In this document: positions 1 to 64,000 of the stretch, piece after piece
Numbering within the stretch: the stretch's first letter is position 1
Layout: each line of letters begins with the position of its first letter
Assembly (NCBI GenBank): GCA_032622095.1
Contig: CP136066.1
Span: 145,729,559-145,793,558, forward strand
Length of the DNA stretch: 64,000 nt
Reading direction: 5' to 3'
Origin: Siphonodentalium dalli
Taxonomy: Eukaryota; Mollusca; Scaphopoda; Gadilida; Siphonodentaliidae
The notes under the pieces: generated by a model
Database searches by the model: none
Told to the model about the DNA's origin: nothing
Seen by the model: the letters and a program-made list of their open reading frames with translations, nothing else
Position numbers and translations under genes: made by a program

Positions 1-1
1 T

Positions 2-1680: not shown

Positions 1681-2279
1681 TAGTGATGTAACGATACGGG
1701 GTTATCGGTAAAAGCCGATAGCCGATATTTTCAGTAGAATTATCGGCCGATCCGATACAGATACTGATAAGTCTTGTACGTGAACCAAACTCCATATCAA
1801 TTTGTCTTTTAAATTACAAAATATTGTCTGCAAAGAACCGATATTGCGATAACCTGGTTGCAAAAAAGTTTAGTTTACGTTCCCCAAAAACCCTGGCAAA
1901 ACGATTTAATATTTTGTTGCATTCATAAGATTTCCTCAATATTTGTTTGATTCCGTTACCGTGCCTTACGGAATCAGTCCATACTAGTAATCCATTTGAG
2001 TCAATGGCGGCAATTTCAATTTCAATTTGCCAAACACAATCTTTTTCAGAAGTTGAACTTGCGTTTAATAACACCTACAATGTCCCGCATAAATTGTTGA
2101 CATTTTCTCTGCCCATGACAGCAGATACAAATCCCGCCCATAGAGCACTCTGAATGGTTCGGATGGTAATCTATCAAACAAGTTAGTCACCTCCCCCATC
2201 TTCAGTCATCGTATACCAGAATGTCAATCAATTTGAATCAAAAGCACTTTAAACACACGCACTTAACTGTTGTTAACAC

Positions 2280-33400: not shown

Positions 33401-34867
33401 CGGGCTACAGGTCGTACCTTTAGTCTGATCATCATAAAATTTGTCATGGCTGTTGAAATTGGAATGTAAATGGGAACGAGTAATTTTGGGGTCATTCGGC
33501 AGAAAAACATGGCGGCCAGCAGCATTCTTGGATTTTACTCTTTGTATGACTAAATTCTTTAGCACGGGCTACAGGTCGTACCTTTAGTCTGGTCATCATC
33601 AAATTTGTCATGGATGTTAATATTGACATGTAGATGGGAACGAGTAATTTTGGGGTCATTCGGCCAAAAAACATGGCCGCCAGCAGCCATCTTGGATTTT
33701 ACTCTTTGTATGACTAAATCCTTTAGCACGGGCCACAGGTCGTACTGTTCGTCTGATCATCATAAAATTTGTCATAGATGTTAACAATGACATGTAGATG
33801 GGAACGAGTAATTTTGGGGTCATTCGGCCAAAAAACATGGTCGCCAGCAGCCATCTTTGATTTTACTCTTTGTATGACTAAATCCTTTAGCACGGGCTAC
33901 AGGTTGTACCTTTAGTCTAATCATCATAAAATTTGTCGTGAATGTTAATAATGATATGTAGATGGGAACGAGTCATTTTGGGGTCATTCGGCAGAAAAAC
34001 ATGGCCGCCAGCAGCCATCTTTGATTTTACTCTTTGTATGACTAAATCCTTTAGCACGGGCTACAGGTCGTACCTTTAGTCTGATCATCATAAAATTTGT
34101 CATGGCTGTTGAAATTGGAATGTAAATGGGAACGAGTAATTTTGGGGTCATTCGGCAGAAAAACATGGCCGCCAGCAGCCATCTTTGATTTTACTCTTTG
34201 TATGACTAAATCCTTTAGCACGGGCTACAGGTCGTACATTTAGTCTGATCATCATAAAATTTGTGTCATGGCTGTTGAAATTGGAATGTAAATGGGAACG
34301 AGTCATTTTGGGGTCATTCGGACAAAAAACATGGCCGCCAGTGGCCATCTTGGATTTCAAAATTTAATCCATTAGCATGGGCCACAGGTCGTACTGTTCG
34401 TCTGATCATCATGAAATTTGTCATGGTTGTTAATATTGGATTTTACTCTTTGTATGACTAAATTCTTTAGCATGGGCTACAGGTCGTACCTTTAGTCTGA
34501 ACGTCATAAAATTTGTCATAGATGTTAATAATGACATGTAGATGGGAACGAGTCATTTTGGTGTCATTCGGCCAAAAAACATGGCCGCCAGCAGCCATCT
34601 TGGATTTTACTCTTTGTATGACTAAATCCTTTAGCATAGGCTACAGGTCGTACCTTTAGTCTGATCGTCATGGATGTTAACGATGACATGTAGATGGGAT
34701 ACAATCATTTTGGGGTCATTCGGCCGAAAACATGGCCGCCAGCAGCCATCTTGGATTTTACTTTTCTCTTCATGTCTATAAACTAGTATTAGACATTCAA
34801 CTTTCCACATTCCTAATCGCTCCATTGACTGTAATACATTAAATTATTCCCTTTCCAAGTTGAGCTA
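30402..34867 (+). repeat. 164-bp tandem array in an inverted-ended element
   Basis: About 25 units of 164 bp, each with 'catggccgccagcagccatc', 'ttagcacgggctacaggtcg' and 'tagatgggaacgagt'. The left end, TAGCTCAACTTTAC, is itself a hairpin with GTAAAGTTTGAGCTA; the right end is AAGTTGAGCTA (34,857-34,867), so 11 bases are inverted at the borders. A gtccgtcgtccg tract follows the left end. Variant units recur every 4 units (for example catggtcgccagcagcc near 33,180 and 33,836), giving a higher-order repeat of about 656 bp. All reading frames here are by-products: 164 is not a multiple of 3. Confidence 0.9.
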
Positions 34868-44039: not shown

Positions 44040-44625
44040 GTTATCTCTGTTTTAGTCACAAAATACATTCCACATGCGACTCGGTAAAATAAATATAGAA
44101 AATACTCAGCTTACATTAAACAAAGATATATGGACATTGTAACGATGTATTTTTGGACATATTGACGGTGGCAACTCAGTAAAATAAAATATTGAAAATT
44201 CTGTGAATTCTCAGCTTACACTAAACACAGATATATGGACATTGTAACCACGTATGTTTGGACATATTGACGCTGATACATTAAACACAGATATATGGAC
44301 ATTGTAACCACGTATGTTTGGACATATTGACGGTGGCGACTCAGTAAAATAAAATATTGAAAATTCTGTGAATTCTCAGCTTACACTAAACACAGATATA
44401 TGGACATTGTAACCACGTATGTTTGGACATATTGACGCTGATACATTAAACAGATATATCGACATTGTAACCACGTGTGTTTGGACATATTGAGGGTGGC
44501 GACACGGTAAAATAAAATATTGAAAATTCTCAGCTTACATTAAACACATATATATGGACATTGTAACCAAGTATGTATGGACATATTGAAGCTAGCAACT
44601 CGGTAAAATCAAAATCAGACTGATC
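44040..44625 (+). repeat. Tandem repeat with 'ggacatattga' units
   Basis: At least six units of variable length (roughly 55-120 bp) share 'agatatatggacattgtaac' and 'gtttggacatattgacg'. Every second unit adds 'actcagtaaaataaaatatt'. Non-coding. Confidence 0.8.
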
Positions 44626-44864
44626 TCATATTAGCCATATTTATTTTTCGATTGAATTTGCAGTGGCCATTCAATAAGTAGCTCAGTTCTGTTGCCATTT
44701 TGTTTAGTTTTTTATGTTTCCCATACCATAGTTGGTGATATATGTTCACCAATTAATCACCTCGATTATGCAATTTATCTTCTGCAAAATAGGGGAGATA
44801 GAAACTGAACAGAAGGGAAAAAGAAACTAAAAACAATGTTAATTTGAGACAATAGATGCTTCCC

Positions 44865-45608
44865 AAAAGATGGCGTCCGTCCATTCGTGCATGCATCAAC
44901 AATTCCGTTCAGCGCACCCTACAGGCTGCATCCCTTATCTGATCTTCACCAAACTTCTAGTGTAGCTTCAGGGTGACCTATAGATGGGAGCTATCAATTT
45001 TTTTCCGAATTTCAATGAAAAGCATGGCCACCAGCAGCCATCTTCGATTTCAAATTGGAATACTTCGGCATACCCTGCAGCCCTCATTTATTGAAGAAGT
45101 TATTTGAAAATTTACAGGCATGTTTAGAATCGCCTCTAGACGGGTGCTATCAAATTTTTTTTAAATTCGTTGAAAAACATTGCCACTGGCAGCCATCTTG
45201 GATTTCAAATTTGAATTCATTGGCACACCCTGCACCCACATTTATTGAAGAATTTGAAAATTCACAGACATGTTTAGAATCACCTCTAGATGGGAGCTAT
45301 CAAATTTTAACAATTTTCGATGAAAAACATGGCCGCTGGCAGCCATCTTGGATATTACTCTTTCATGACTAAAACCTTTGGCACACCCTACGGAACACAT
45401 TCCTCATCTGATGATCACCAAACGTCATATGGATCTTCGGGGTTACCTCTAGATGGGAGCCTCCTATTTTTTTTACCGAAAATGTTGAAAAACATGGCCA
45501 TCTTTGAATTTACTCTTTGTATGACTAAATCCTTTGGTGCACCCTACAGACAACATCCCTCATCCGATCGTCACCAAACTTCAAATGGATCTTACGGTGA
45601 CCTCTAGT
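44865..45608 (+). repeat. Degenerate relative of the 164-bp tandem repeat
   Basis: About five diverged units contain 'cagcagccatcttcgatttc', 'tagatgggagctatcaa' and 'atctgatgatcaccaaac'. Spacing and wording match the 30.4-34.9 kb array, but each unit has diverged. Frames at 45,055-45,372 and 45,320-45,607 are repeat-derived. Confidence 0.7.
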
Positions 45609-45756
45609 TTACTTTCCTTCTTTTTTATGTCTATAATCTGCATTGATTTATGTTACCCAAGCGGAAACCCTGGCTATTATGTCTAATCTGTAGTGATTTA
45701 TTTTACCCTGGCGGAAACCCTGTTTATTATGTCTTATTTTTTCATTTCTTTTCCAG

Positions 45757-46140
45757 GCACGTAGAATTGTGACTAATGTCAACCAGGCGTGGAACAGGAA
45801 AATATGGCTCTCGCCAGGCAGGCCGACGGATCAACTTGCCACCAGCATCTGCTCATATATCGGCAACTCGTTCAGATGGAAACTACCCAGTACACGAGCT
45901 AGTCAATGCTCGAAAGACTGATAAATTCAATGAAAAATCACTCAACGAAACTGAATAACATGGGTGACAAAATTGGTATTATTATAAGACGGTTCTAGAT
46001 TTGTTACTCTTGAGAAACCTGGTAAAAATGTTAATGATGTAACATTTGATTCTGATTGCAATGAGTCTCGAGAACAAGTCGGTAGGATGAAAATTAAAAA
46101 CACTATTCACAACCTGATCATGAACCAAAGGAAGAAAATT
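45757..46140 (+). pseudogene. Exon-like start of an unidentified protein
   Basis: A strong acceptor (tttcttttccag) precedes a frame starting at 45,777 with MSTRRGTGKYGSRQAGRRIN and running 60 residues. After a shift another frame reads FVTLEKPGKNVNDVTFDSDC, NESREQVGRMKIKNTIHNLI. It may be the 5' part of the recombinase gene family that follows, or an unrelated gene split by it. The last part (46,093-46,117) recurs exactly at 55,437-55,461. Confidence 0.4.
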
Positions 46141-46151
46141 AATTTTCCAAT

Positions 46152-46394
46152 ATGCCGTCACGCGAGGCGGTTGGATTTATTTTATCTACTTGCTATGATT
46201 GTTCCAAGGAATGTGTGGGTTACTGCGTCCGTAAACAAATTGAATTTGAAAGAGAATTGAGATGCCCTAATTCTTATTCAGCCTCAGGACGCGAATATCG
46301 AGTTTATGTTTTTTTGTGGGAGGATTTTAGGATGCTGGCCGACTTTGTCCACGCGATTGACCTTGATGCCAATGTTGTCAACATAATCAAATGA
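46152..46394 (+). CDS. Unidentified 80-residue protein, copy 1
   Basis: Reads MPSREAVGFILSTCYDCSKE..., with four Cys in the first 25 residues (CYDC and two more), then REYRVYVFLWEDFRMLADFV. No family is recognised. A near-copy follows 473 bp downstream with its frame intact, although one codon is gained there. A short stretch of open DNA with Cys pairs suggests a metal site, but this is inference. Confidence 0.4.
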   Translation: MPSREAVGFILSTCYDCSKECVGYCVRKQIEFERELRCPNSYSASGREYRVYVFLWEDFRMLADFVHAIDLDANVVNIIK

Positions 46395-46624
46395 TTATTA
46401 TGATTTGTAAGTGACCCAATGGTCCCAACACCTGTCAACTTAGACATCAAGTTTTGCACATGCGCAATACAGGACGTGCATAACAACGACTCACCGAGGT
46501 AAATGCCATTTTTTGAATTAAGACTTGCGATTGATGCGCACGTGCAGAAGCTTTCCCGCGTATCCGCTTGTTAAGGTTGTGTTGCTAAAATGGTGTAGAG
46601 GGTAAGTGTGCTTTATTTTCCAAT

Positions 46625-46870
46625 ATGCCGTCACGTGAGGCGGTTGGATTTATTTTAACCACTTGCTATGATTGTTCCAGGGAATGTGTGCGTTACTGCG
46701 TCCGTAAGCAAATTGAATTTGAAAGAGAATTGAGATTGCCTATAAATTTTTATTCAGCCTCAGACCGGGAATATCGAGTTTATGTTTTTTTGTGGGAGGA
46801 TTTTAGGATGCTGGCTGACTATGTCCACGCGATTGACCTTGATGCCATTGTTGTCAACATCATCAACTGA
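46625..46870 (+). CDS. Unidentified 81-residue protein, copy 2
   Basis: Second copy of the frame at 46,152, about 86 percent identical in protein, with substitutions such as S-to-T and K-to-R and one extra residue. Start ATG and stop are in the same positions. The upstream text 'ttttccaatatgccgtcacg' is also repeated. Retention of an open frame in both copies is the only sign that it may be functional. Confidence 0.4.
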   Translation: MPSREAVGFILTTCYDCSRECVRYCVRKQIEFERELRLPINFYSASDREYRVYVFLWEDFRMLADYVHAIDLDAIVVNIIN

Positions 46871-47204
46871 TTATTATGATTTGTAAGTGAGTTCATCAAT
46901 GAAATTAATGTCGAAGTTGAACACAAGGCCACAGACCCCAGTCGCCACAGTCCTAGGACTTTCTCATTAATATGTAACTCGGGAATATCGAGTTTAACAT
47001 CCCAGTATCATTATCATTTACACCAGTTATGTTCAGAATAATATTACAAAAAAATTACACCCAATACGCCCCAAAAACATAATTCAATATTCAAACACTT
47101 TGAGAAATCATAAAACGAAAACTAAGTGGCGTTAAACAAATCGAAATCAGTCTCAGAAATGTGACAATTTAACTAACACCAATTTAAGAATGGCCACACA
47201 AAAA

Positions 47205-48148
47205 CTGAAAATTGACGTGAGTGGAACCTTAATGTGGAATTAACCATAAATGATATCCTAGTTCCAAGTAAATACCCTGTTATTGTTCAAGCGACAAGGA
47301 TCTTGTGCAAGTACAATCCGAACACGAACAGATACAATAATCCTTCGCTTGCTTTGAAACTTTTGACATCAGCTCAAGAAAGGTGCACGAGTCAAGAGGA
47401 CAGACTCTCTTATGTCAAGCAATCCTGATGGAGCTAAGGACGCTGAAGGCTTCCTGGAAGTTATACAAAATGAATGGGAAGATGAAGTGTCAAGTCCAGC
47501 ATTGCAAACAGTGGTATCAAACAGACTAAACAAAGGGCAGGTTCTCCCTATGACAGACGACATCCTGAAATTTCCAAGCATACTTAAAGAAAATGAGTGA
47601 CTTGAACAAAAGTACCCTTAACAAAGCATTTTCCAAATCACATTGGGAAACATTGAGTCAGATAACATTGGCAGAAATTGTGCTATTCAACAGGCGGAGA
47701 GGAGGGGAGACCGAAAGAATAACAGTTGAGCAATACAAAAACAAAACAGTTAAGTCTTCAACCTTGAAGGAGATAGATCAGTCCATTGGAAAAGGCATTA
47801 TGTTCGATGTTTTCCAGAGTTGAAATACGAGGGAAAAAGGGGCGTACTGTTCCTGTGCTAATTACAAAGCGGTGTGAGCAGAGCATCGATTTGTTGCTAA
47901 TATTCCGGACGGAAGCAGGAGTTCATGATGAAAATCCTTATGTTTTTGCTAGATCAAATTTCGATTCACGAAATTCCATCAGAAGTGCTGACGTTGTGAG
48001 GAGGTTTTCTAAAGAAGCAGATTTGGGAAACATTGAGTCAGATAACATTGGCAGAAATTGTGCTATTCAACAGGCGGAGAGGAGGGGAGACCGAAAGAAT
48101 AACAGTTGACCAATACAAAAACAAAACAGTTAAGTCTTCAACCTTGAA
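47205..48148 (+). pseudogene. Tyrosine recombinase-like gene, older degraded copy
   Basis: Frames joined by shifts read YNPNTNRYNNPSLALKLLTS, then EGFLEVIQNEWEDEVSSPAL, then LAEIVLFNRRRGGETERITV (box I Arg), then VEIRGKKGRTVPVLITKRCE and ENPYVFARSNFDS. This is the middle and catalytic part of a phage-integrase-fold protein family common in invertebrate mobile DNA. It keeps the GKKGRTVPV segment that the later copies lack. It stops before box II. At 48,027-48,148 it carries a second copy of its own 47,646-47,767 segment. Confidence 0.7.
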
Positions 48149-48244
48149 GTAATGTATTGTCATAACGTTTTAAATTTCAGAACATTTAAATTGTAATATA
48201 GTTTGGTGTAAGTTTTCTGGGACAATTTCTTCATTCTGCTCTAA

Positions 48245-48850
48245 TTATCCTAGTTTTATTTTCTCACATTTTTTAATGTTGTTGGAATTGTATGATTCTT
48301 CCGCATTTTCACCATCGGACTGGTCTGTTGAACAGTCATCATCCCCATACACCATTCTCTCGATTTCGCCATCAGACATCCCAGTCTCATTGTCAATAGG
48401 CCCATCTCCACTTCTAGTCGGGCCACTGCTAGTAGATTGTGCATATTTATTCTGATTGTTCTCAACACATGGAGCCGCTGCTGCTTCAGAACTTTTTTCA
48501 CTGCATTTGATGTCTTCATAAGACACGCTTTTTCCAGGTTCGATGTTTAACTTCTTTCGTTTCAGTCGGGGCTCTTTCGCAACTTCACCTCTTAAATCAC
48601 CATGGTATTCAATGAAGCTATCTCCGATTAAGTTTGTGCTGTCACGCCTGTGAGGAAGTCGATCTAAAATTTCATTCTTGTTAATTGGCCAAATCCCAGC
48701 TTTCCTGAAACCGGACTTAAGATTCTCGGAAACATTATCAGAGATTGCATCATGCAGTTTCGCCAGCTGTATTGGGAACACATCCTTGGGTATAGCGCTT
48801 GCCGACTTTTCCCGCTTCTTCCAATCGGTCAATAACAATATGATCCGCAA
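48245..48850 (-). pseudogene. pogo/DDE_1 transposase C-terminal fragment (unit 1)
   Basis: About 200 residues on the minus strand: TDWKKREKSASAIPKDVFPI, then SENLKSGFRKAGIWPINKNE, ILDRLP, and an acidic tail. The SGFRKxGIxPxN...LxRLP block is the familiar C-terminal end of pogo/Tigger-type (DDE_1) transposases. The DDE catalytic core and DNA-binding domain are absent, so it is a fragment. The frame starts from a TTG in the computed reading; no true ATG is evident. Confidence 0.75.
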
Positions 48851-48934
48851 ACTTCTGATGATGAAGCTTACGAAACATATATATCGGACATGTAGGACTA
48901 GACCACACTGTTAACCCTGAAATTTCTCGGAACA

Positions 48935-50500
48935 TGATCACGGTACAGCCATGCAATAATGACGGAGGAAAAAGACGCTGGGATAAAATTCACTTCTGCC
49001 TTTTTTGTCAGCATGGATTTACGAATTTGACAAAATCATTTTTTTGGGCCCCATAGTGGTGAAAAGGAAATCAAAGCAATTCTGCGTCTCGAGAAAAATT
49101 CGACTGAAAAGAAAAATGAACTCCTGAGACTTCGGAATTCCGGTGATTTCCAACATAACATGGATGTGTTGAAAAGTGGCAAAGGAATGCTTGTTGTGTT
49201 GTCACGGAAGATGGGTGGAGATGTTTCACCATCAGACTATTTGCCATGTGAAAGTTGTTTAGCGTTTTTCTTGAAGGATGGTTTGTGGCGCCACAGAAAA
49301 CAATGTCCACTGAGAAAAGGAGAGGTTCCATACAGAAGGGTACAGTCAGGAGCAAGACTTCTTCTGCCATCATCAACAACTGCGAGCGATGGTCTGAGGA
49401 ATCAAGTTTTTACGAGAATGGCGTCCGACGAAATCACGATCGCCGCTCGAAATGATCGTTACATCATAAAGTTAGGGGAGAAATTATTTCAGAGACATGC
49501 GCATTCCTAAGAAGAAAAAAAATAAATGTAACATTAACTAATAGCAGAAGTAACCATTTGTACCCCGTGTACCCATGGGCCTGAAATTAGTTCAGGAAAT
49601 ATGTTTTCTAATTTGCTAAATTTGTGCTCATAAAATGTAACCAATGTACCCGACGTAACAACAGGGTACAAAAGTTGTGTTGTTTTTCGGCGTACCAAAA
49701 TTTGCCATATATGAAACAAAGGGCAGGTTCTCCCTATAACGGACGACATCCTGAAATTCCAAGCATACTTACAGAAAATGAGTGACTTGAACAAAAGTAC
49801 CCTTAACAAAGCATTTTCAAAATCACATTGGGAAACATTGAGTCCGATAACATTGGCAGAAATTTTGCTATTCAACGGGCGGAGAGGAGGGGAGACAGAA
49901 AGAATAACAGTTGACCAATACAAAAACAAAACAGTTAAGTCTTCAACCTTGAAGGAGATAGAAGACTCGTTCAGTCCAATGGAAAAGGCATTATGTGCGA
50001 TGTTTTCCAGAGTTGAAATACGAAGCTATAATATGCTAATTACAAAGCGGTGTGAGCAGAGCATCGATTTGTTGCTAATATTCCGAACGGAAGCAGGAGT
50101 TCATGATGAAAATCCTTATGTTTTTCGCTAGATCAAATTTCGATTCACGAAATTCCATCAGAAGTGCTGACGTTATGAGGAGGTTTTCTAAAGAAGCAGA
50201 TTTTAAATTTCCTGGTTCGATAACCAGCACAAAGTTAAGGAAACATGTAGCGACCATGTCGCAGATATTGAACCTCGGCAAGCAGGATTTGGAAACTATG
50301 GCAGAGTTCATGGGTCACGACATGGAAGTGCATAAAACATTTTACCGTCTACCACAGGAGACAATACAAGTTGTCAGGATGGGTAGATTATTACATGCGT
50401 TTGACCAAGGCACTGTAGGAAAGTATAGCGGGAAATCGCTCGATGAAATACCGGTGGAAGACAGACTATGTGGAAGAAGGTAGTTTCATCTATACCGTAA
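48935..50500 (+). pseudogene. Zinc-finger tyrosine recombinase gene (unit 1), broken
   Basis: Same parts as the unit 2 copy: a CLFC zinc-finger start, a C2HC finger (CESC...LWRHRKQC) in 49,160-49,510, then a non-coding 200-bp stretch, then the catalytic domain from about 49,718. An extra T at about 50,124 shifts the frame before box II, and two extra bases at about 50,470 shift the last residues. Confidence 0.75.
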
Positions 50501-50923
50501 AGCCGGTTTACTTTGGCCCACTTTTTGCCTTCCTCACTTGATAACTTATAAACAAAGAAACCGATCACTAATTTCTAGTTGCTTAAATATGCGGACCTGA
50601 TGTGTCTACAATGTCACAAATATGCAATACCTGAGACTATACTAGAATGTGTTAGTTTTTGTTTTGTTTGTGGGTGGCCAAAGTTCCAATTGTTTTTGCA
50701 CCATTAGTCAATGCTGATGACAAATGCGTATACACTTGGGTAGTTTAAAACAAACAGACAACAGAAATAACATACTTATATTAATTAAGCAAACACAATT
50801 CAGGGATATGACTGATATAACACATTCTAACACATAATTATACATGTATGTCAACAATTATGTCAGACACAGTGCTGCACATTACTTGTACAACATAGAG
50901 AAATCTATTTCCGGAAGGTCTCA

Positions 50924-51124
50924 CTATACACCCCAGGTCTGAAATATAATTCTACACTCTATCTTGAAGACACCCCTATCATTGTAAGGCACAATAGAAG
51001 ATATATCAATATTCTCAAGAATGTCACTAAAATGGTTAAGAATCTGGTCTCTTGTCTTTGGCCATTTCCAGCCTGTGGTATCACACTTGACCATAACATT
51101 TTTCTTCAGCGCCAGTAACTTCAA
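50924..51124 (-). other. Unidentified minus-strand frame (unit 1)
   Basis: The minus strand reads LALKKNVMVKCDTTGWKWPK then TRDQILNHFSDILENID. It is repeated in unit 2 (54,266-54,610), where the frame is longer. No family is recognised. The poly-C tract lies just upstream of it. Confidence 0.35.
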
Positions 51125-51663
51125 CAGTCTCTACCTGACCAGGAAATGGCGACCCCCCCCCCCCCCCCCCCCCCCCCTCATAATTCACCACGACCCAATC
51201 ACCTGAAACAAGAAACGATGGTGTGATGAACATGTGTTAACCTTCCTCTTCAATGCGTCAAGATGATTATTATTGTAGACACTATTATTAAACTAATGTC
51301 ATTTATACTTTAATTATTGTTTGAGAATTGTTTGAAGTACAAAAGTCCTACGAAAATAAAAGGTATATAAGCAATTCATGTGAAGTTTATCATTAAATCG
51401 CGCAGTATTCATCTAGCATGCCTTAGATTCATGTCCATGCACACAATTTTCTTTGAATTATGTACAACTTGACTGTTACATAAGCTGCAAATTAGCAGGC
51501 AATCATTTTAAATTCATCGTAAACTGGTCAGTTTAGATGAATGTGTTTTGCTTATGGCACATGTACAGTAATGTATTGTCATAACGTTTTAAATTTCAGA
51601 ACATGTAAATTGTAATATAGTTTGGTGTAAGTTTTCTGGGACAATTTCTTCATTCTGCTCTAA

Positions 51664-52268
51664 TTATCCTAGTTTTATTTTCTCACATTTTTTAATGTTG
51701 TTGGAATTGTATGATTCTTCCGCATTTTCACCATCGGACTGGTCTGTTGAACAGTCATCATCCCCATACACCATTCTCTCGATTTCGCCATCAGACATCC
51801 CAGTCTCATTGTCAATAGGCCCATCTCCACTTCTAGTCGGGCCACTGCTAGTAGATTGTGCATATTTATTCTGATTGTTCTCAACACATGGAGCCGCTGC
51901 TGCTTCAGAACTTATTCACTGCATTTGATGTCTTCATAAGACACACTTTTTCCAGGTTCGATGTTTAACTTCTTTCGTTTCAGTCGGGGCTCTTTCGCAA
52001 CTTCACCTCTTAAATCACCATGGTATTCAATGAAGCTATCTCCAATTAAGTTTGTGCTGTCACGCCTGTGAGGAAGTCGATCTAAAATTTCATTCTTGTT
52101 AATTGGCCAAATCCCAGCTTTCCTGAAACCGGACTTAAGATTCTCGGAAACATTATCAGAGATTGCATCATGCAGTTTCGCCAGCTGTATTGGGAACACA
52201 TCCTTGGGTATAGCGCTTGCCGACTTTTCCCGCTTCTTCCAATCGGTCAATAACAATATGATCCGCAA
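51664..52268 (-). pseudogene. pogo/DDE_1 transposase C-terminal fragment (unit 2)
   Basis: Same as 48,245-48,850, but 'gaacttattcac' replaces 'gaacttttttcac' near 51,908, which shifts the frame after IKCSE. The conserved NLKSGFRKAGIWPIN block is unchanged. Confidence 0.75.
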
Positions 52269-52307
52269 ACTTCTGATGATGAAGCTTACGAAACATATAT
52301 ATCGGAC

Positions 52308-53985
52308 ATGTCAGAATCCTTTCCTGCTGCAAACTCTCCCAGAAATGAGGCACATCTGGCACAGGGTTCTAGTTTACAACGAGGACTAGACCACACTGTT
52401 AACCTCGAAATTTCTCGGAACATGATCACGGTACAGCCATGCAATAATGACGGAGGAAAAAGACACTGGGATAAAATTCACTTCTGCCTTTTTTGTCAGC
52501 ATGGATTTACGAATTTGACAAAATCATTTTTTTGGGCCCCATAGTGGTGAAAAGGAAATCAAAGCAATTCTGCGTCTCGAGAAAAATTCGACTGAAAAGA
52601 AAAATGAACTCCTGAGACTTCGGAATTCCGGTGATTTCCAACATAACATGGATGTGTTGAAAAGTGGCAAAGGAATGCTTGTTGTGTGGTCACGGAAGAT
52701 GGGTGGAGATGTTTCACCATCAGACTATTTGCCATGTGAAAGTTGTTTAGCGTTTTTCTTGAAGGATGGTTTGTGGCGCCACAGAAAACAATGTCCACTG
52801 AGAAAAGGAGAGGTTCCATACAGAAGGGTACAGTCAGGAGCAAGACTTCTTCTGCCATCATCAACAACTGCGAGCGATGGTCTGAGGAATCAAGTTTTTA
52901 CGAGAATGGCGTCCGACGAAATCACGATCGCCGCTCGAAATGATCGTTACATCATAAAGTTAGGGGAGAAATTATTTCAGAGACATGCGCATTCCTAAGA
53001 AGAAAAAAAATAAATGTAACATTAACTAATAGCAGAAGTAACCATTTGTACCCCGTGTACCCATGGGCCTGAAATTAGTTCAGGAAATATGTTTTCTAAT
53101 TTGCTAAATTTGTGCTCATAAAATGTAACCAATGTACCTGACGTAACAACAGGGTACAAAAGTTGTGTTGTTTTTCGGCGTACCAAAATTTGCCATATAT
53201 GAAACAAAGGGCAGGTTCTCCCTATAACGGACGACATCCTGAAATTCCAAGCATACTTACAGAAAATGAGTGACTTGAACAAAAGTACCCTTAACAAAGC
53301 ATTTTCAAAATCACATTGGGAAACATTGAGTCCGATAACATTGGCAGAAATTTTGCTATTCAACGGGCGGAGAGGAGGGGAGACAGAAAGAATAACAGTT
53401 GACCAATACAAAAACAAAACAGTTAAGTCTTCAACCTTGAAGGAGATAGAAGACTCGTTCAGTCCAATGGAAAAGGCATTATGTGCGATGTTTTCCAGAG
53501 TTGAAATACGAAGCTATAATATGCTAATTACAAAGCGGTGTGAGCAGAGCATCGATTTGTTGCTAATATTCCGAACGGAAGCAGGAGTTCATGATGAAAA
53601 TCCTTATGTTTTCGCTAGATCAAATTTCGATTCACGAAATTCCATCAGAAGTGCTGACGTTATGAGGAGGTTTTCTAAAGAAGCAGATTTTAAATTTCCT
53701 GGTTCGATAACCAGCACAAAGTTAAGGAAACATGTAGCGACCATGTCGCAGATATTGAACCTCGGCAAGCAGGATTTGGAAACTATGGCAGAGTTCATGG
53801 GTCACGACATGGAAGTGCATAAAACATTTTACCGTCTACCACAGGAGACCATACAAGTTGTCAGGATGGGTAGATTATTACATGCGTTTGACCAAGGCAC
53901 TGTAGAAAAGTATAGCGGGAAATCGCTCGATGAAATACCGGTGGAAGACAGACTATGGAAGAAGGTAGTTTCATCTATACCGTAA
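52308..53985 (+). pseudogene. Zinc-finger tyrosine recombinase gene (unit 2), best copy
   Basis: Three frames in order. (1) 52,308-52,544: MSESFPAANSPRNEAHLAQG... with CLFC at residues 60-63, the start of a C2H2-like finger, broken in a T7 tract. (2) 52,557-52,998: HSGEKEIKAIL, then a C2HC finger with C30, C33, H45 and C49 counted from the internal Met at 52,648. (3) 53,206-53,985: catalytic domain open to a TAA. Counting from the Met at 53,266: Arg36 (RRGGE), Arg154 in TKLRKH, His180 in FMGHD and Tyr189 in FYRLP. In box II the usual first His is Thr151. The family is a phage-integrase-fold recombinase of Crypton or related type. The middle region seen at 47.2-47.6 kb is missing and replaced by 200 non-coding bases. 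Confidence 0.8.
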
Positions 53986-54265
53986 AGCCGGTTTACTTTG
54001 GCCCACTTTTTGCCTTCCTCACTTGATAACTTATAAACAAAGAAACCGATCACTAATTTCTAGTTGCTTAAATATGCAGACCTGATGTGTCTACAATGTC
54101 ACAAATATGCAATACCTGAGACTATACTAGAATGTGTTAGTTTTTGTTTTGTTTGTGGGTGGCCAAAGTTCCAATTGTTTTTGCACCATTAGTCAATGCT
54201 GATGACAAATGCGTATACACTTGGGTAGTTTAAAACAAACAGACAACAGAAATAACATACTTATA

Positions 54266-54610
54266 TTAATTAAGCAAACACAATTCAGGGATATGACTGA
54301 TATAACGCATTCTAACACATAAGTATACATGTATGTCAACAATTATGTCAGACACAGTGCTGCACATTACTTGTACAACATAGAGAAATCTATTTCCGGA
54401 AGGTCTCACTATACACCCCCAGGTCTGAAATATAATTCCACACTCTATCTTGAAGACACCCCTATCATTGTAAGGCACAATAGAAGATATATCAATATTC
54501 TCAAGAATGTCACTAAAATGGTTAAGAATCTGGTCTCTTGTCTTTGGCCATTTCCAGCCTGTGGTATCACACTTGACCATAACATTTTTCTTCAGCGCCA
54601 GTAACTTCAA
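54266..54610 (-). other. Unidentified minus-strand frame (unit 2)
   Basis: 114 codons starting MKLLALKKNVMVKCDTTGWK, then WPKTRDQILNHFSDILENID and ISSIVPYNDRGVFKIECGII. The first 60 residues are shared with unit 1. No known domain. It may be a captured host exon. Confidence 0.35.
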
Positions 54611-55043
54611 CAGTCTCTACCTGACCAGGAAATGGCGACCCCCCCCCCCCCTCATAATTCACCCCACGACCCAATCACCTGAAACAAGAAACGATGGTGT
54701 GATGAACATGTGTTAACCTTCCTCTTCAATGCGTCAAGATGATTATTATTGTAGACACTATTATTAAACTAATGTCATTTATACTTTAATTATTGTTTGA
54801 GAATTGTTTGAAGTACAAAAGTCCTACGAAAATAAAAGGTATATAAGCAATTCATGTGAAGTTTATCATTAAATCGCGCAGTATTCATCTAGCATGCCTT
54901 AGATTCATGTCCATGCACACAATTTTCTTTGAATTATGTACAACTTGACTGTTACATAAGCTGCAAATTAGCAGGCAATCATTTTAAATTCATCGTAAAC
55001 TGGTCAGTTTAGATGAATGTGTTTTGCTTATGGCACATGTACA

Positions 55044-55433
55044 GTAATGTATTGTCATAACGTTTTAAATTTCAGAACATGTAAATTGTAATATAGTTTG
55101 GTGTAAGTTTTCTGGGACAATTTCTTCATTCTGCTCTAATTATCCTAGTTTTATTTTCTCACATTTTTTAATGTTGTTGGAATTGTATGATTCTTCCGCA
55201 TTTTCACCATCGGACTGGTCTGTTGAACAGTCATCATCCCCATACACCATTCTCTCGATTTCGCCATCAGACATCCCAGTCTCATTGTCAATAGGCCCAT
55301 CTCCACTTCTAGTCGGGCCACTGCTAGTAGATTGTGCATATTTATTCTGATTGTTCTCAACACATGGAGCTGCTGCTGCTTCAGAACTTTTTTCACTGCA
55401 TTTGATGTCCTCATAAGACACACTTTTATTAAA
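55044..55433. mobile_element. Composite repeat unit 3, truncated
   Basis: 390 bp identical in order to the start of units 1 and 2 (minus-strand pogo tail, ending within SVSYED). It breaks off at 'gacacacttttatt'. The minus-strand frame 55,140-55,466 continues across the junction into flanking DNA, making a chimeric reading frame. Confidence 0.85.
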
Positions 55434-55490
55434 AACATTAAAAACACTATTCACAACCTGAATCAAAGGAAGAATTTTTTATTTTTTTTT

Positions 55491-56150
55491 CGTCTAATAA
55501 CATTTAAACACCAATTTTGAACAGTTTAAGGTAGGTGGATATTTCCTCATTAATATTCGACCCGTTGCGATCAATTAGAATTAGTAGTCAGTGCTTTATC
55601 GCGGGAAAAATGCAATTTAATCATCTCCGCGTGACCATTTCTTCCACAAGATATCCAAGAAAATGTCAATTTTCACAATCATCTCAACAACTTTTCGCCA
55701 CAACCATTATACCGATCGAAGCGCATGTACTCCTCCCACAAATACATATATCGTGTATTGTCACGGAATGTCTTAATAGTATTCCAAATTTCCAATTTAC
55801 ATACAGGTAACCGCTTCGCAATTACTGTCCGGTTAGTCCCAGAAAATTCAATCATTAGTCCGCTTACTGAGACATTCCGTGACAATACTCAAGATATGTA
55901 TTTGTGGGAGGAGTAAAGGCGCTTCGATCTTTTTAATGTTTGTGGCGAAATGTTGAGATGATTGTGAAAATTGACATTTTCTTGGATATTTTGTGGAAGA
56001 AATAGTCACGTGGCGATGATTAAATTGCATTTTTTCCGCGATAAAGCACTGACAACTGATTCTAACTGATCGCCGCGGGTCGAATATTAGTGACGAAATA
56101 TTCACTTACCTTAAACTGTTCAGAATTGGTGTCTAAACTGTTATTAGACG
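55491..56150. mobile_element. Foldback element, about 280-bp arms
   Basis: The left arm starts cgtctaataacatttaaaca and the right arm ends 'ctgttattagacg'. The arms 55,491-55,774 and 55,869-56,150 are inverted copies with several differences (for example 'ggatatttcctcattaatat' against its complement). The 94-bp centre is unrelated. No gene; the frames at 55,535-56,105 are arm readings. It sits 30 bp past the truncated third unit. Confidence 0.88.
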
Positions 56151-56234
56151 AATAAAAGGTGTCGGAAAGTGTCTGTAAACTTTGACAACACAAATTCCTT
56201 GCCTCGAACTCTACGACTTCTGGTTTTCATTTGT

Positions 56235-57315
56235 GTCCATCACGCTTTCTCCCTCCGTTTGTCTGTCCGTCCATCCGTCCGACCTCATAACTCGAACAAC
56301 TATGAACCGATTTCAATAATTTTTTGTATGCAATCTCATTAGGACTGCCTCTCTCCGCGTGATGCTAATTGTGGTTCGGTCAGACTTTTTTTTTTAAAGT
56401 TACACCTCATTTTCGACTTATTCTGTCCGACTTAATAACTTTAACAAATATGAACTGATTTCAATAATTTTTGGTATACATGATGCTCACAATACCCTCT
56501 CTACATGACGCGGCTAGGGATTGGCTCAGACTGTTTTTCGTAATATTACACTTCATTTTCAACTTATTTCTGTCTGACTTAATAACTTTAACAAATATGA
56601 ACCAATTTGAATAATTTTTTTGTATGGATGTTCACCACTATGAGGACATTTAATAGCATATTCAACTGTTTTGTGTTTTGGTTTGATGAGGGACAGTTGG
56701 TGTGCGGGCGGGCAGACCTAAAGAATGCCTTACAACTTTGACATTTGTGAACGGATTCAAAAAATTTTGGTATGTTGCTCCCAATGACTATTTATTGCCT
56801 GTAGATAATGGGTCATGTCCGAACTTTTTGACAAGAGTTATTCACCTTTGATGACTTTTTTTGCATATTTTTCACTGTTGGCGCGATAACTCAATCAAAT
56901 ATTAACTGATTCAAACCATATATGATCTATGAGTCTCTTGCAACAAATTCTCGGACAAGTTCAAAAACCAGGTTTGTCCGAATTTTTTCCCGGAGTTATG
57001 GGCTTTAGTTTGTCTATTTTTAGCATTTATTTTCTCTATTAGCGTGATAACTGAATCAAATTTTGTTAACTGATTCAAACCATATTTGATATATGAGTCT
57101 CTTGCAACACTATCTCGGGACGAGTTCGAAAACCAGGTTTGTCCGAATTTTTTCCCCAGAGTTATGGGCTTTAGTTTGTCTATTTTTAGCTTTTTTCACC
57201 GTTGGCGCGATAACTGAATAAAATATTAACCGATTCAAACGATATTTGATATATGAGTCTCTTGCAATAATATATCAGACGAGTTCGAAAACCAGGTTCG
57301 TCCGACATTTTGGGC
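56235..57315 (+). repeat. GTCCG-type repeat with several core units
   Basis: 'catcacgctttctccctccg' and gtctgtccgtccatccgtccg, then 'aactatgaaccgatttcaat' units shared with 16,640-17,215. From 56,880 there are three units with 'ggcgcgataactgaat' and 'gagttcgaaaaccaggtt'. Confidence 0.7.
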
Positions 57316-57326
57316 CTTGTGTTGGC

Positions 57327-58060
57327 CTTAATGCAAAGTTATTGGCAGAAGTTTTTTTCGACTGCCAATAACCTCGATATAGCATCTTAGATGCATACCC
57401 CTTGTTTATTTCATAGTTATTGATCTTTGTGTTTATGAAAATGCTGATTATGCCCACACCAGGCGGTATGCCACCAGGGGGTATGCACCGGACGACAGTC
57501 CATCTGTTGTTTTTTTTGCGAGTAGTATTTGTAATACTTGTATCTATTATTTATTACAGGCCTATTCATATTTTAATTCTGTATATGAGAAATCCAACCC
57601 ATGCAGTATTTAAAAATCATTTCCGCACACATGTTCTATACAGACTTTGTTGACATCTGCAAAAACTAAAAACATTGTGACCCACATTTCACGAAGCGGG
57701 CGCAACTAAGAGGTTTTCCGAAAATGCAAAGAATCTCAGAATTTGCAGCTTTTGACATAATTTTGGTCGTTTAATTGTCAAATTCCATGTCAGTAAATCA
57801 TAATCAGAAGTTCTGTGTCTTTGAATGTAATGTAAGATTGTCAAGTCAATGATTAGATTGATTGCAATTAGCGCCCTTTTAAGTCGTGGATTCAAGGACG
57901 TGGTTGGTGTTAAATAAAACCAGAACGACACGGTTGTGTGAATGTGTTAATCGGGTTGACACTTGTGCCATATCGAATAACACATTCACACAACCATGTC
58001 GTTCTGTGTATGTATTTCTGCTTGGAATATTTTCTGAATGTCGACTGAGTTTTGTGTGGG
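57327..58060 (+). repeat. 1.22-kb tandem unit, copy 1, without MITE
   Basis: Same sequence as the next two units ('ttgatctttgtgtttatgaa', 'ccagggggtatgcaccggac', 'cacatttcacgaagcgggcg') but 480 bp shorter. At 57,609-57,615 it has a single TTTAAAA, where copies 2 and 3 hold a foldback element between two TTTAAAA copies. It contains a hairpin around 'ggttgtgtgaatgtgttaat' (57,927-58,002). Confidence 0.9.
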
Positions 58061-59276
58061 CCTTAATGCCAAGTTATTGGCAGAAGTTTTTTTCGACTGC
58101 CAATAACCTCGATATAGCATCTTAGATGCATACCCCTTGTTTATTTCATAGTTATTGATCTTTGTGTTTATGAAAATGCTGATTATGCCCACACCAGGCG
58201 GTATGCCACCAGGGGGTATGCACCGGACGACAGTCCATCTCTTGTTTTATTTACGAGTAGTATATGTAATACTTGTATCTATTATTTATTGCAGGCCTAT
58301 TCATATTTTAATTCTGTATATGAGAAATCCAACCCGTGCAGTATTTAAAAGTACTCAATCCGATAAAACTCCTCTCAATTACTATTTCAATGGCTTCCGG
58401 GGTCAAAAATATTTGATTCGAGTCGAGGAAGCCACCCATCAAAGCTCAGATTTTTTAGATATCGATTTTAGAAATCTATTATTTTTCATTATTGGGAATA
58501 CTTTCTGGCCCAGAACAGTCAAAATTGCGTTATTATTACCACTTGATTTTAGAGTTATCCATCCTTGTCTGTTTGATTAGTGTTTTGGTGTACACATCTC
58601 GAGCAGATTATGGCAGTTGAAGGCAATTATTAGTACTCATCTCGAGAAAATAAGAAATTTCAAAAATCAATATCTAATAACTCTGAGCTTTGTTTGATGG
58701 GTTCCTCGACTCTATTCAAATATTTTTTACCCCGAAAGCCAAAGAAATAGTAATATAGGACCCTTTGATCGGATTGTTGTTGTTGGAATCTGTTGAGATG
58801 GGGACCCTCTGATCGGATTGAGTACCTTTAAAAATCCGTTCCGCACACATGTTCTATACAGACTTTGTTGACATCTGCAAAAACTAAAAACATTGTGACC
58901 CACATTTCACGAAGCGGGCGCAATTAAGAGGTTTTCCGAAAATGCAAAGAAACTCGGAATTTGCAGCTTTTGACATAATTTCGGGCGTTTAATTGTCGAA
59001 TTCCATGTCTACATCATATTCGGAAGTTCTGTGTCTTTGAATGTAATGTAAGATTGTCAAGTCAATGATTAGATTGATTGCAATTAGCGACCTTTCAAGT
59101 CGTGGATTCAAGGACATGGTTGGTGTTAAATAATACCAGAACGACCCGGTTGTGTGAATGTGTTAATCGGCTTGACACTTGTGCCATATCGAATAACACA
59201 TTCACACAACCATGTCGTTCTGTGTATGTATTTCTGCTTGGAATATTTTCTGAATGTCGACTGAGTTTTGTGTGGG
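58061..59276 (+). repeat. 1.22-kb tandem unit, copy 2, with MITE
   Basis: Head-to-tail with copy 3 at a period of 1,216 bp and with few differences. A 476-bp foldback MITE is inserted at 58,351-58,826. The long frame at 58,155-58,580 crosses the MITE border and is not a gene. Confidence 0.9.
58351..58826. mobile_element. Foldback MITE, TTTAAAA TSD (copy 2)
   Basis: The ends gtactcaatccgat and atcggattgagtac are perfect inverted repeats, and the arms continue as inverted copies for most of the length ('gaggaagccacccatcaaag' against 'tttgatgggttcctcgact'). TTTAAAA flanks both sides (58,344-58,350 and 58,827-58,833). Confidence 0.9.
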
Positions 59277-60493
59277 CCTTAATGCCAAGTTATTGGCAGA
59301 AGTTTTTTTCGACTGCCAATAACCTCGATATAGCATCTTAGATGCATACCCCTTGTTTATTTCATAGTTATTGATCTTTGTGTTTATGAAAATGCTGATT
59401 ATGCCCACACCAGGCGGTATGCCACCAGGGGGTATGCACCGGACGACAGTCCATCTCCTATTTTATTTGCGAGTACCGGTAGTATTTGTAATACTTGTAT
59501 CTATTATTTATTGCAGGCTTATTCATATTTTAATTCTGTATATGAGAAATTCAACCCGTGCAGTATTTAAAAGTACTCAATCCGATAAAACTCCTCTCAA
59601 TTACTATTTCAATGGCTTCCGGGGTCAAAAATATTTGATTCGAGTCGAGGAAGCCACCCATCAAAGCTCAGATTTTTTAGATATCGATTTTAGAAATCTA
59701 TTATTTTTCATTATTGGGAATACTTTCTGGCCCAGAACACAGTCAAAATTGCGTTATTATTACCACTTGATTTTAGAGTTGTCCATCCTTGTCTGTTTGA
59801 TTAGTGTTTTGGTGTACACATCTTGAGCAGATTATGGCAGTTGAAGGCAATTATTAGTACTCATCTCGAGAAAATAAGAAATTTCAAAAATCAATATCTA
59901 ATAACTCTGAGCTTTGTTTGATGGGTTCCTCGACTCGAATCAAATATTTTTTACCCCGAAAGCCAAAGAAATAGTAATATAGGACCCTTTGATCGGATTG
60001 TTGTTGTTGGAATCTGTTGAGATGGGGACCCTCTGATCGGATTGAGTACCTTTAAAAATCCGTTCCGCAAACATGTTCTATACAGACTTTGTTGACATCT
60101 GAAAAAACTAAAAACATTGTGACTCACATTTCACGAAGCGGGCGCAATTAAGAGGTTTTCCGAAAATGCAAAGAAACTCGGAATTTGCAGCTTTTGACAT
60201 AATTTCGGGCGTTTAATTATCGAATTCCATGTCAGTACATCATATTCGGAAGTTCTGTGTCTTTGAATGTAATGTAACATTGTCAAGTCAATGATTAGAT
60301 TGATTGCAATTAGCGACCTTTCAAGTCGTGGATTCAAGGACGTGGTTGGTGTTAAATAATACCAGAATGACACGGTTGTGTGAATGTGTTAATCGGGTTG
60401 ACACTTGTGCCATATCGAATAACACATTCACACAACCATGTCGTTCTGTGTATGTATTTCTGCTTGGAATATTTTCTGAATGTCTACTGAGTT
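59277..60493 (+). repeat. 1.22-kb tandem unit, copy 3, with MITE
   Basis: Third unit, ending where 'tgtctactgagttaacacaa' replaces the unit sequence. It holds the MITE at the same position (59,573-60,050), so copies 2 and 3 derive from one MITE-bearing unit. Confidence 0.9.
59573..60050. mobile_element. Foldback MITE, TTTAAAA TSD (copy 3)
   Basis: Nearly identical to 58,351-58,826, with the same ends and the same TTTAAAA flanks. Two extra bases lie near 59,738. Confidence 0.88.
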
Positions 60494-62222
60494 AACACAA
60501 ACGTTCACAAATTTGAAAAGATTATTTCTGGCCTCATGACCTCCCACACCTAATGTCCTGCAAGTATTTTATGCCCCTGCCCTCAATTGTTAATGATAAC
60601 AAGAGTGCCTCATGACGGTTCGTTTTTATCCTGTTTCGTTTGAATTTGTTAAATAAAAAATTGCATTTAATACAAAGTGTATTTTCTTATTAGGAACACC
60701 AAAGCCAAATATTGTAAGAAACCATAATAATAGCAGATTACTGTATTGTGTTGACTATAGTTTTTATGTAATGAGTGGGATTTGGCATATAATTTTAGCT
60801 TCAGCAAGGGAAAATATATGCCTACAATCCCAAATGTTACATAGAAACTATAATCGAACACAGTACAGTAATAGGCCAATAGTAGTACTACATAGCACTT
60901 GCCTGCTGATTAGGGGTCTACATCGGCATGTTACATATCGTCGCACATGACACTGGCCCATCAATTAGGGGAGAGAGGGGGTTTCTCATATTAATTTCTA
61001 ATTTTCATACATTGTTGCAATATAACTCGATAATGGTCCCAGATATCAATTCCAAATTTTGAATATGGGCCATTCACATCAGACTGACCCACCCACAAAT
61101 CAAGGGTTTGTGGGTGAAGGGTTTAATTAGCAGTTTAATTTCCAAAGTGACTATATGTATCGGTCAGATCAGTTTGTACAGAGCCTAGCTGGCACCCAAG
61201 TAAGGGTGAGTGATATGTAAACGATAGGTCTCTTTTGTGTATATACATGTGAGATTTCCTACCCCTCCGAATTAGGGTGAGTGGATTTAAAGGGTGTGTT
61301 CATGTAGAGGTTTCATTTTGGTAATTAAATGAGACTCCCTCCCTACATGGAGCAGCTAGAGCCCAGCCTTTCTGTTGCTTTTCACTCTCTCCCATTGAGG
61401 GTCGATTCCTGACATCTTAGTGCCATATGCTTTATACTTCTTTCAAGCCGATAAGAACATTTGAGTCTGATAAGGCCAGTTATATATAAGATGCTGACGA
61501 TAAGATAGAATGCTATAGTGTGATGTCAAGTTGAACTGTGATAATGGCCAGAAATCTAATTCTGGCCTGAATTTACCTTTCCTGGTGTTATTAGTGACTT
61601 GTCGCCCGAGGTATTAGTACAGTGAGTACACACTTGCCCAACAGCACATTTTCAACAAATATCAGTTTCACACAAGATTTGGCTGGAATCCCATAGCCTG
61701 GCCTCTGAGTTTCAACATAATAATGTGAGTTCCGCTACCGCATGAATGTTCATAGCAAATTTGAGCCCAATTGGCCTTACAAGCTTACCGAATTTCAGTC
61801 AAATCTGACGATTGGTTCTTGAGAAGCTTTTGAAATATTTGGGTCACCAACAGGATTTGAACCCTCATTGACCGTCTCCTAATAAACCAATCAATCCTAT
61901 ATTGATCAAAATTGTTTCCCTGTTGCCCAAGGTATCTGCACACCATATTTGAGCAAAATTGAGTGTTTCTTGCGAAGTAAATGTTTGGTCAGTAAATGAT
62001 TTGAACCCCCCCCCCCCCCCCTCCCATTCTCACCATCCTTGATAAATCTTGTATGGTTTCTGGCAAGTCCGACTATGCAGTCAATTATTTAAGTTCAACT
62101 GCGGTGTCATTGATAATTTCAGTATTCACATTGTGAGTCATTGGTTTTAATCATTCTGTATATGGACAAAGCCATTAATGCACTAATTGACCTTGGGCAT
62201 ATGTGAGCAATATGGTGTTTAC
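60494..62222. other. No gene; one palindrome and a poly-C tract
   Basis: 60,738-60,871 is a palindrome with ttactgtattgtgtt at left and aacacagtacagtaa at right. 61,700-62,000 has degenerate text with 'catttgagc' repeats, and a C15 tract lies at about 62,008. No exon or gene is recognised. Confidence 0.5.
60738..60871. repeat. Palindromic MITE, 134 bp
   Basis: Inverted arms of about 55 bases (ttactgtattgtgttgacta against its complement) with a short centre near 60,805. Several mismatches. No target duplication was identified. Confidence 0.7.
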
Positions 62223-63731
62223 TAGTCCAAGTCTTCTCGTACTAAAACCGGCTAAGATATTGGGATGGAGGTGCCGGTCTTTAGTCCAAGACCGCTTGTA
62301 TACCAATCCTATGACACGACTTACGCCCACGATCTGTGGCGGGAATTTGTGGTGTATTTTACTCGATTTACCTAGCAAATCAATACATGATGCTATATAC
62401 ATCGGAAAGGCTTACATCTTATGGTCATAATGGTGTATAATAATCTAACTTTAATGTTAAATTACACATAGAATATTCCGGTTGATTGACACAAACATCG
62501 ATTTGTTTATCTGTTTGTTTACGTTTTAACCGAAAGCCGAAGTGGTGGGAACGGGTCGTTTCGGTCCGGAGACGTTTCGGCTCAGACCTTTTCGGTCCAG
62601 GGACGTTTCGGCTGGGACGTTTCGGCCGGGACGTTTCGGCCCCATATATTGTGTTAATTGGAGTTGATTGCAGGGGATTAACTCGGCTTATACACGAGTC
62701 GCAGTCTACGGCTTGTTGGTGTGACGAGACGTCTTTCCCACACTTGATGCAAGGGTTGTCGGGAGGGCTTTCCTTGGTTGTAGCTTGTCGACGAAGGTTG
62801 TACGGCATGTTGAACGATTTCAAGATGATATGAACAGAGCAGTATCCCATGCTTAATATACTCTAGGACCGAAACGACACGGACCCGAAGTGGTCCGAAT
62901 AAGTTCGGCATAATCCGCTGTTTGTTCTGGGAATTCTACTTTCCGTTTCTATATATAGCGCGGGTTTTCCGAACAAAAATGTCGAAAACCGATCGCCCGA
63001 AAGTCCAGTTTTCTATGTGCTTTCAGAACAATTCCCGCACTAAAAACTTAATGACATAATGGAGGATCAGAACGGTAGTTTTGTTGACAATTTTCGCAAG
63101 CAACTTGTCAAAATTGGAGCAAATTAGAACTCTTATGTCTGACTTGCCATGCGTGTGCATTTTGATTTGTGTGTTGATAAAATAATCGGAGAACCGAATC
63201 ACACAGTTTCGAAATATAGTTCTTCCGTTTTAGTGGGACTTTTCAAACTTAAGGTTCATTTATTTAGTGTATTACATTTATATCTCCAATGTTTAATTAA
63301 TCTATTTATTATTTTATTTATTGACACACATAATTACGATTACAATGGAGAATTCATCGTAATTTGCGTTGTTGTCCTAAATCTACGGAATATTTTCAAC
63401 GGAAAATGCCGAACACAGTTCGCGAGGTCAACCGAGTTCGCATACTTTTAAAAAATTGTAAACATTGAGGTAAATGTCTCTTTTCGCATTAAATTACCGT
63501 TTTAAATTCACAACTGATGTGGGTTTCAGATAAAATAGCATGTCTTCTGCGGAAAATATCCGTTTATTGTCGCAATTGTGATATGTTATTTCATATAATT
63601 GTGGTTTTATTTGAGCGGGTCACTAACGCTTAAGTCGTGTCATAAGAATGCATGGGCCTGGAACTCGGACTAAAGACCGGCACCTCCATCCCAATATCTT
63701 AGCCGGTTTTAGTACGAGAAGACTTGGACTA
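62223..63731. mobile_element. Mutator-like element, 1.5 kb, perfect 9-bp TSD
   Basis: Terminal inverted repeats of about 65 bp are almost perfect (TAGTCCAAGTCTTCTCGTAC ... at left, its complement ending CTTGGACTA at right). The flanks are GGTGTTTAC on both sides (62,214-62,222 and 63,732-63,740). Long TIRs with a 9-bp duplication are the Mutator/MULE signature. No MULE transposase is seen. The interior has a gacgtttcgg repeat (62,550-62,642) and a Cys-rich minus-strand fragment. Confidence 0.9.
62692..62808 (-). pseudogene. PHD-like Cys-rich fragment inside the MULE-like element
   Basis: The minus strand reads MPYNLRRQATTKESPPDNPC, then IKCGKDVSSHQQAVDCDSC. The C-x2-C ... C-x2-C spacing with AVDCDSC is like the first half of a PHD finger. 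The expected W...H..C second half is missing; the frame then runs into the gacgtttcgg repeat. Probably a captured gene fragment. Confidence 0.5.
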
Positions 63732-63789
63732 GGTGTTTACAAGAACCATGGGTACACAATGTATGTGTGACTGAACCTGATTAAGTATG

Positions 63790-64000
63790 CCTCGTTATAC
63801 AGTATGTGTGTGTGCATTCCTTATTTGGGAGTACCTCCCTATCACTGGTGTGTGATGTGTTCCTTATATGGAATTAAACTCATTAGTGCCCATGACCTCT
63901 GCATGTCTGTGAAAAGTTGATTCCTTATTTGGTGCGTACCTCGTTATCACTTGTGTGTGATGTTTACCTTATATGGTATAAACCTCATTAATATTCATGA
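63790..64000 (+). repeat. Imperfect tandem repeat, about 125 bp x 2
   Basis: Two units share 'attccttatttgg', 'tatcactggtgtgtgatgtg' and 'ccttatatgg...aaactcatta'. The second unit runs to the end of the window, so the array may continue. Confidence 0.7.

Follow-up and report, generated by a model that had tools for sequence, protein, structure and literature searches.

Transposons of the pogo superfamily of Tc1/mariner DNA transposons encode a DDE_1 transposase, carry inverted ends and duplicate a TA target. Insertion of a transposon into a tyrosine recombinase (YR) element is also known, as Crypton copies of medaka carry piggyBac or RTE inserts (PMC3212892, Table 2). Likewise, multimers of the KolobokP transposon are reported in molluscs, as far as PMC9587614 describes them. 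Here we analyse a locus of Siphonodentalium dalli in which pieces of a zinc-finger YR gene and of a pogo element alternate head to tail. The window, meaning the whole stretch of 64,000 nucleotides that was analysed, is G000:C6:145729559-145793558, and the genome searched comprises 2.23 Gb in 9 contigs. Literature on such a YR/pogo composite was not found, judged by titles and abstract openings.

The two near-identical units of 3.4-3.5 kb and the partial third one that a preliminary description had reported are present in the assembly, with restarts at 48,149, 51,568 and 55,044 that are exact to 1-2 bases. Unit 1 (48,149-51,567) measures 3,419 bp and unit 2 (51,568-55,043) 3,476 bp, and a repeat search of the window places three identical 300-bp copies of one family (D1) at 48,148, 51,567 and 55,043. 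The third copy (384 bp) matches the start of unit 2 (positions 1-383) at 99% and stops at 55,427; at its right edge lies a filler of ~55 bp resembling sequence near 46,090, where the related locus on contig C9 keeps ~45 bp more of the unit. The array was said to start at 48,149. The units do start there, but unit 1 is preceded by another piece of the YR gene, itself duplicated in part (47,246-48,148, hereafter YR copy 0). The features are the following.

47246..48148, + strand: YR copy 0, a middle/3' piece of the YR gene that ends at the YR/pogo joint (by sequence comparison; joint spanned also on C9 and C2)
47,643-47,769 = 48,023-48,149: partial internal duplication within YR copy 0
48149..48839, - strand: unit 1, C-terminal coding part of the pogo transposase, from a truncated pogo element (92% to the L008 ORF, 141 aa)
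48839..49503, + strand: unit 1, N-terminal part of the YR, zinc fingers by eye (by sequence comparison)
48,893/48,894: 70-bp deletion in the YR N-terminal part of unit 1, absent from unit 2 and C9
49504..49713, no strand: unit 1, 210-bp stretch replacing ~375 bp of YR coding sequence (by sequence comparison)
49714..50494, + strand: unit 1, catalytic part of the YR, frameshifted and lacking the hairpin motif; ends in TCTATA, the pogo target
50495..51567, - strand: unit 1, 3' part of the pogo element with its terminal inverted repeat (CCGTAAAG...)
51568..52257, - strand: unit 2, C-terminal coding part of the pogo transposase
52258..52991, + strand: unit 2, N-terminal part of the YR
52992..53201, no strand: unit 2, 210-bp replacing stretch
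53202..53979, + strand: unit 2, catalytic part of the YR, open frame, lacking the hairpin motif; TA target copy at 53,978-53,979
53980..55043, - strand: unit 2, 3' part of the pogo element with its terminal inverted repeat; the frame 54,266-54,616 lies here
55044..55427, - strand: incomplete third copy with 384 bp of pogo sequence, then ~55 bp of filler

Unit 1 aligns to unit 2 in two pieces at 99% identity. Over aligned bases the units are 99.56% identical, with 15 mismatches and 7 indels that include the 70-bp deletion in unit 1, and the lengths of their poly-C runs differ. With 15 substitutions and 7 indels between them, the two units are no double count of a single sequence. Doubling of one real unit by the assembler is thus very unlikely in view of these differences, even though the copy number in the window rests on the assembly and the near-identical C9 locus shows one unit.

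Matches to the whole unit break at recurring unit positions (1-690, ~741-1424, 1635-2413 and 2410-3476). Positions 741-1424 are the N-terminal part of the YR and 1635-2413 its C-terminal part. Positions 2410-3476 and 1-690 are contiguous in L005 (C3:62.68 Mb), in which no YR match was detected within the 7.5 kb read, and this contiguous sequence represents the 3' portion of a - strand pogo element. We considered the unit restart (3476|1) as an element end and rejected it, as sequence runs on across it in L005, a pogo copy without YR. Unit position 1, which is preceded by CAG to give CAGTAATG, was likewise rejected as an end of pogo or of another element, L005 being continuous there. An inverted-repeat search around one unit returned pairs of 12-15 nt only.

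The pogo/DDE_1 C-terminus described on the - strand is borne out through the ORF of a related copy, L008, to which the window fragment is 92% identical over 141 aa. Pfam finds the DDE_1 domain in this ORF (E 3.7e-20) and in L019 (2e-18), and returns no match for the window fragment itself, whose overlap with the DDE_1 match is limited to the last ~20 residues. A frame on the - strand was also described as being without identity; the frame exists (54,266-54,616) but is part of the pogo stretch, and it is similar to the tail of a pogo transposase of 611 aa (27%, 48 aa, E 8e-7, in a single comparison). Together with its relatives the element displays the features of the pogo superfamily, namely a DDE_1 transposase in the related copies, terminal inverted repeats and a TA target duplication; of the two ends, the window retains the left one only.

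The position at which YR gives way to pogo can be read from empty and filled sites. The empty site at the 3' end of the YR reads TCTATACTTAAAATT in L006, L007 and two L009 copies. The filled left end reads TCTATA/CCGTAAAG at C2 (n=2) and in the window (n=2), or in the longer reading TCTATA/CCGTAAAGC..., and the right end reads CGG/TACTTAAAATT at C2 (n=3), with ...GCTTTACGG/TACTTAAAATT as its longer reading. These readings show that pogo inserted there, with inverted ends and a duplicated TA. A probe of the left joint gave 31 matches in the genome, and both partners were present in five (both window units, one copy on C9 and a pair on C2). A further 18 held the YR side only, 17 of them ending at the insertion point and one being shorter, and in four of these 18 the empty site was read; 8 held the pogo side only (two >90% identical, the others 74-79%). 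Of the 40 matches scored for the YR/pogo joint at 48,148, three cross it, namely those of the window, C9 and C2. Since YR and pogo are linked at the same site in all five copies, these most simply go back to one insertion that was spread by duplication. Recombinase and pogo are thus linked elsewhere, on C2 and C9, at loci related to the window by duplication, and the notion of a composite recombinase/DDE unit as a family is not supported, the partners being joined in 5 of 31 matches, all at one site.

The joint specific to the array is the other one, where truncated pogo is fused to the N-terminus of the YR (48,839 and 52,257). A probe of this joint gave 8 matches, three of which span it: C9, unit 2 and, as far as its 70-bp deletion, unit 1; the same probe did not find the joint at C2. 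Comparison by eye with L011 and with pogo copies reveals a one-base overlap at the fusion.

We examined the state of the YR gene in relatives and in the array. In L006 and L007, 374 bp of DNA separate the N- from the C-terminal part; this DNA is YR coding sequence that is missing from the window units. In both units ~375 bp of YR coding sequence are replaced by 210 bp of unrelated sequence, found in the window and C9 only among 9 sequences compared, and the N- and C-terminal parts fall in separate frames. The motif GKKGRTVP, which we take to hold the hairpin lysine of YRs, is absent from the frames of both window units (alignment A1) and retained in YR copy 0; furthermore, the YR of unit 1 is frameshifted. 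The recombinases of both units look dead. Given the loss of YR coding sequence, the missing motif, the frameshift in unit 1, and a pogo piece left with one end and ~20 DDE_1 residues, the YR and pogo pieces both read as pseudogenes, neither of which would be able to act. The zinc-finger YR gene on the + strand of the preliminary description is supported as a YR by fold ranking and motifs, but the gene is broken and the motif is gone from both units.

Sequence searches gave little for the YR protein. Pfam, which holds DUF3504, returned nothing above the curated cut-off for 7 window pieces (one weak MitMem_reg) or for 3 long relatives (one weak zf-C4), and searches of PHROGs and of PDB sequences gave E values of 0.017 or worse and 0.12 or worse, respectively. 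We modelled the 662-aa relative in L015 (mean pLDDT 70.6, pTM 0.39). Its Foldseek ranks 1-8 of 220 are XerH/XerD (probability 0.97-1.00, best E 3.1e-3, TM to query 0.18-0.21), and the next match falls to E 0.21 and probability 0.13. Likewise, a model of the window's own YR ORF (mean pLDDT 72.9, pTM 0.65) has YRs at ranks 1-11 of 116 (best E 1.5e-2, TM 0.31-0.37). Neither model has a match at E 0.001 or better, and TM-scores are low. In alignment A1 (11 rows, several of them close relatives) R57, R175, H201 and Y210 are nearly invariant, the residues being assigned by eye; at the presumed first catalytic H (HxxR box), also assigned by eye, all 10 of the 11 rows that cover the position have T. 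Fold ranking and motifs, rather than sequence search, support the protein as a tyrosine recombinase.

Pieces of this YR recur in other tandem arrays. L010 (C9:153.7817-153.8189 Mb) shows 18 matches at ~2,167-bp spacing, and its satellite-like units, each with a 338-bp YR fragment, are 99.8-99.96% identical in the 7 kb read. On C6, the arrays L009 and L012 have units of ~2.31 kb and ~5.46 kb. The YR portion in the three arrays is between 338 bp and ~1.2 kb long, and their similarity to the window lies in YR sequence; we infer satellite-type amplification. One of the two origins that the preliminary description offered is a head-to-tail array built by the recombinase through repeated insertion of circles at a single site. 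The YR fold indicated by model comparison agrees with this proposal, as do YR pieces in arrays with units of ~2,167 bp, ~2.31 kb and 5.46 kb. However, a fixed junction sequence at element ends was found neither in the window joints nor in the three other YR-bearing arrays read, which differ from one another in unit length and YR extent; the window joints are a TA-duplicating pogo insertion and a one-base-overlap join, and both window units lack the hairpin motif. We consider repeated integration extremely unlikely.

A zinc-finger YR frame of 610-611 aa is present in L016, L017 and L022-L027 (C6:179.0, C3:139.4 and C9:74.17 Mb). The segment around it is common to C6 and C3 over ~23.6 kb, up to the edge of the fetched DNA, and is shared with C9 over ~17 kb with two large indels, the similarity starting sharply at one side; the three copies (C6, C3, C9) gave no confirmed element ends. 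Dispersed repeats with the YR tail only (query ~177-248) account for 36 of 148 protein matches, mostly as a frame of ~80 aa. Eight fetched copies (L035-L042) are 92-99.6% alike over 1.9-2.5 kb, and none of the eight has clear element ends.

C9 also holds a paralogue of the array. The region C9:117.93-118.05 Mb matches window 1-4,000 (with a gap), 44,522-56,902 and 60,500-63,825 (bar one inserted element). The parts compared agree at 97-100%, a large interchromosomal duplication. Window 1-4,000 recurs in inverted orientation at C9:117.992 Mb as well, and beyond window position 63,825 no C9 match occurs among the matches listed. On C9 the left YR piece is the same and one unit is present, with unit positions 1-427 occurring a second time; this single unit, a form for which the preliminary description had suggested looking, stands between ~430-bp direct repeats with flanks as in the window. 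Counting substitutions only, window and C9 are 99.83% identical in the left flank, 100% in YR copy 0, 99.53-99.67% in the unit and 97.93% in the right flank, which is less alike than the left; with gaps included (BLAST) identity is 97.2-97.5%. Units within and between the two loci are 99.5-99.7% identical.

This layout recalls KolobokP-type composite-like DNA transposons, (LTDR-INT)n-LTDR, whose consecutive monomers share long terminal direct repeats: C9 resembles LTDR-INT-LTDR and the window (LTDR-INT)2-LTDR. We give such an origin next to no credence, and rejected it as a candidate for its arms without inverted ends (13 and 9 of 30 ungapped positions match). Moreover, no flanking 3-5 bp target duplication was seen by eye at the array flanks of the window and C9, the arm is pogo sequence that is unbroken in L005, and the transposase is a DDE_1 pogo. 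With 40 of 518 candidates scored, the matches listed include no locus other than the window and C9 that has both borders of the arm.

At C2:4.05-4.08 Mb, YR and pogo copies lie in direct repeats that have been rearranged, which suggests a tandem ancestor. With C2 as outgroup there are 21 variable sites. Six pair units by derived base (units 1 and 2 three times, unit 2 and C9 twice, unit 1 and C9 once), and the others are private or not polarised. The conflicting sites give no direction, whether gain of a unit on C6 or loss of one on C9; exchange or conversion, or recurrent change, would yield them.

Our data suggest the following course. A pogo transposon inserted with TA duplication near the 3' end of the zinc-finger YR gene, as seen in copies at C2:4.05-4.08 Mb, with the left joint being the same on C9 and twice in the window. 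The YR copies with pogo may once have stood in tandem, as the rearranged C2 locus suggests. A non-homologous deletion would then have brought the N-terminus of the following YR copy up against the middle of a pogo copy; the remnant, 3.5 kb long, would have lain between direct repeats of ~430 bp, as it does on C9. As these repeats flank one unit there, unequal homologous exchange between them is possible and would give two units; exchange or replication slippage may thus have raised the number on C6 by one unit (or lowered that on C9 by one), with no active part for the YR and pogo pieces in the duplication. Unequal exchange after a single insertion, the other origin put forward earlier, is supported by the C9 paralogue, though not proved. 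Together, the array is very probably a pogo-in-YR nest that was cut by an illegitimate join and multiplied by homologous exchange within a duplicated region.

Other repeats surround the array. Window 62,223-63,732 holds an element of ~1.5 kb whose inverted ends, ~105 bp long, are imperfect (87%); it occurs in at least 37 other places, its two main pieces being 95-100% identical (40 of 3,921 candidates scored). Its many 95-100% copies and its absence at the matching C9 site indicate that it is probably a recent insertion. Window 30,498-34,438 is a tandem array of ~24 copies of a 164-bp unit, and the stretches 57,317-60,000 and 55,503-56,137 hold direct repeats at ~1,216-bp spacing and a separate large inverted repeat next to the array.

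An apparently new composite element can thus be explained by three ordinary steps, i.e. nested insertion, illegitimate deletion and unequal exchange, and it is unusually clear here in that loci resembling the intermediates persist in the same genome. This calls for caution in repeat annotation and involves no new mechanism and no new kind of mobile element. The part that deserves separate study is the YR family behind the array. With no significant Pfam model and T at the presumed first catalytic H, this zinc-finger family could be an undescribed eukaryotic mobile-element family that moves in large segments (~23.6 kb on C6 and C3, ~17 kb on C9, around the 611-aa frame), the frequent tandem arrays of its pieces reflecting past activity. 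We think this unlikely; if true, the window array would be a decayed derivative of that family.

In appearance the locus is like KolobokP as PMC9587614 describes it, with multimers and with direct repeats on either side of internal units, but its arm ends are not inverted, no target duplication was seen and the transposase is another one. With Crypton (CryptonA), in the description of PMC3212892, it shares a YR protein in a eukaryote; in contrast, the window YR has N-terminal zinc fingers (by eye), no significant Pfam match and T for H in the presumed HxxR box, and no element ends were found for it. The pogo superfamily is matched in DDE_1 of related copies, inverted ends and TA duplication, whereas the window has only one end and the 3' part left. 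The nested Crypton inserts of medaka, as given in PMC3212892, are alike in that a transposon lies inside a copy of a YR-type element; the window nest involves a YR family not assigned to Crypton and, unlike those of medaka, appears to have been later truncated, fused and tandemly duplicated.
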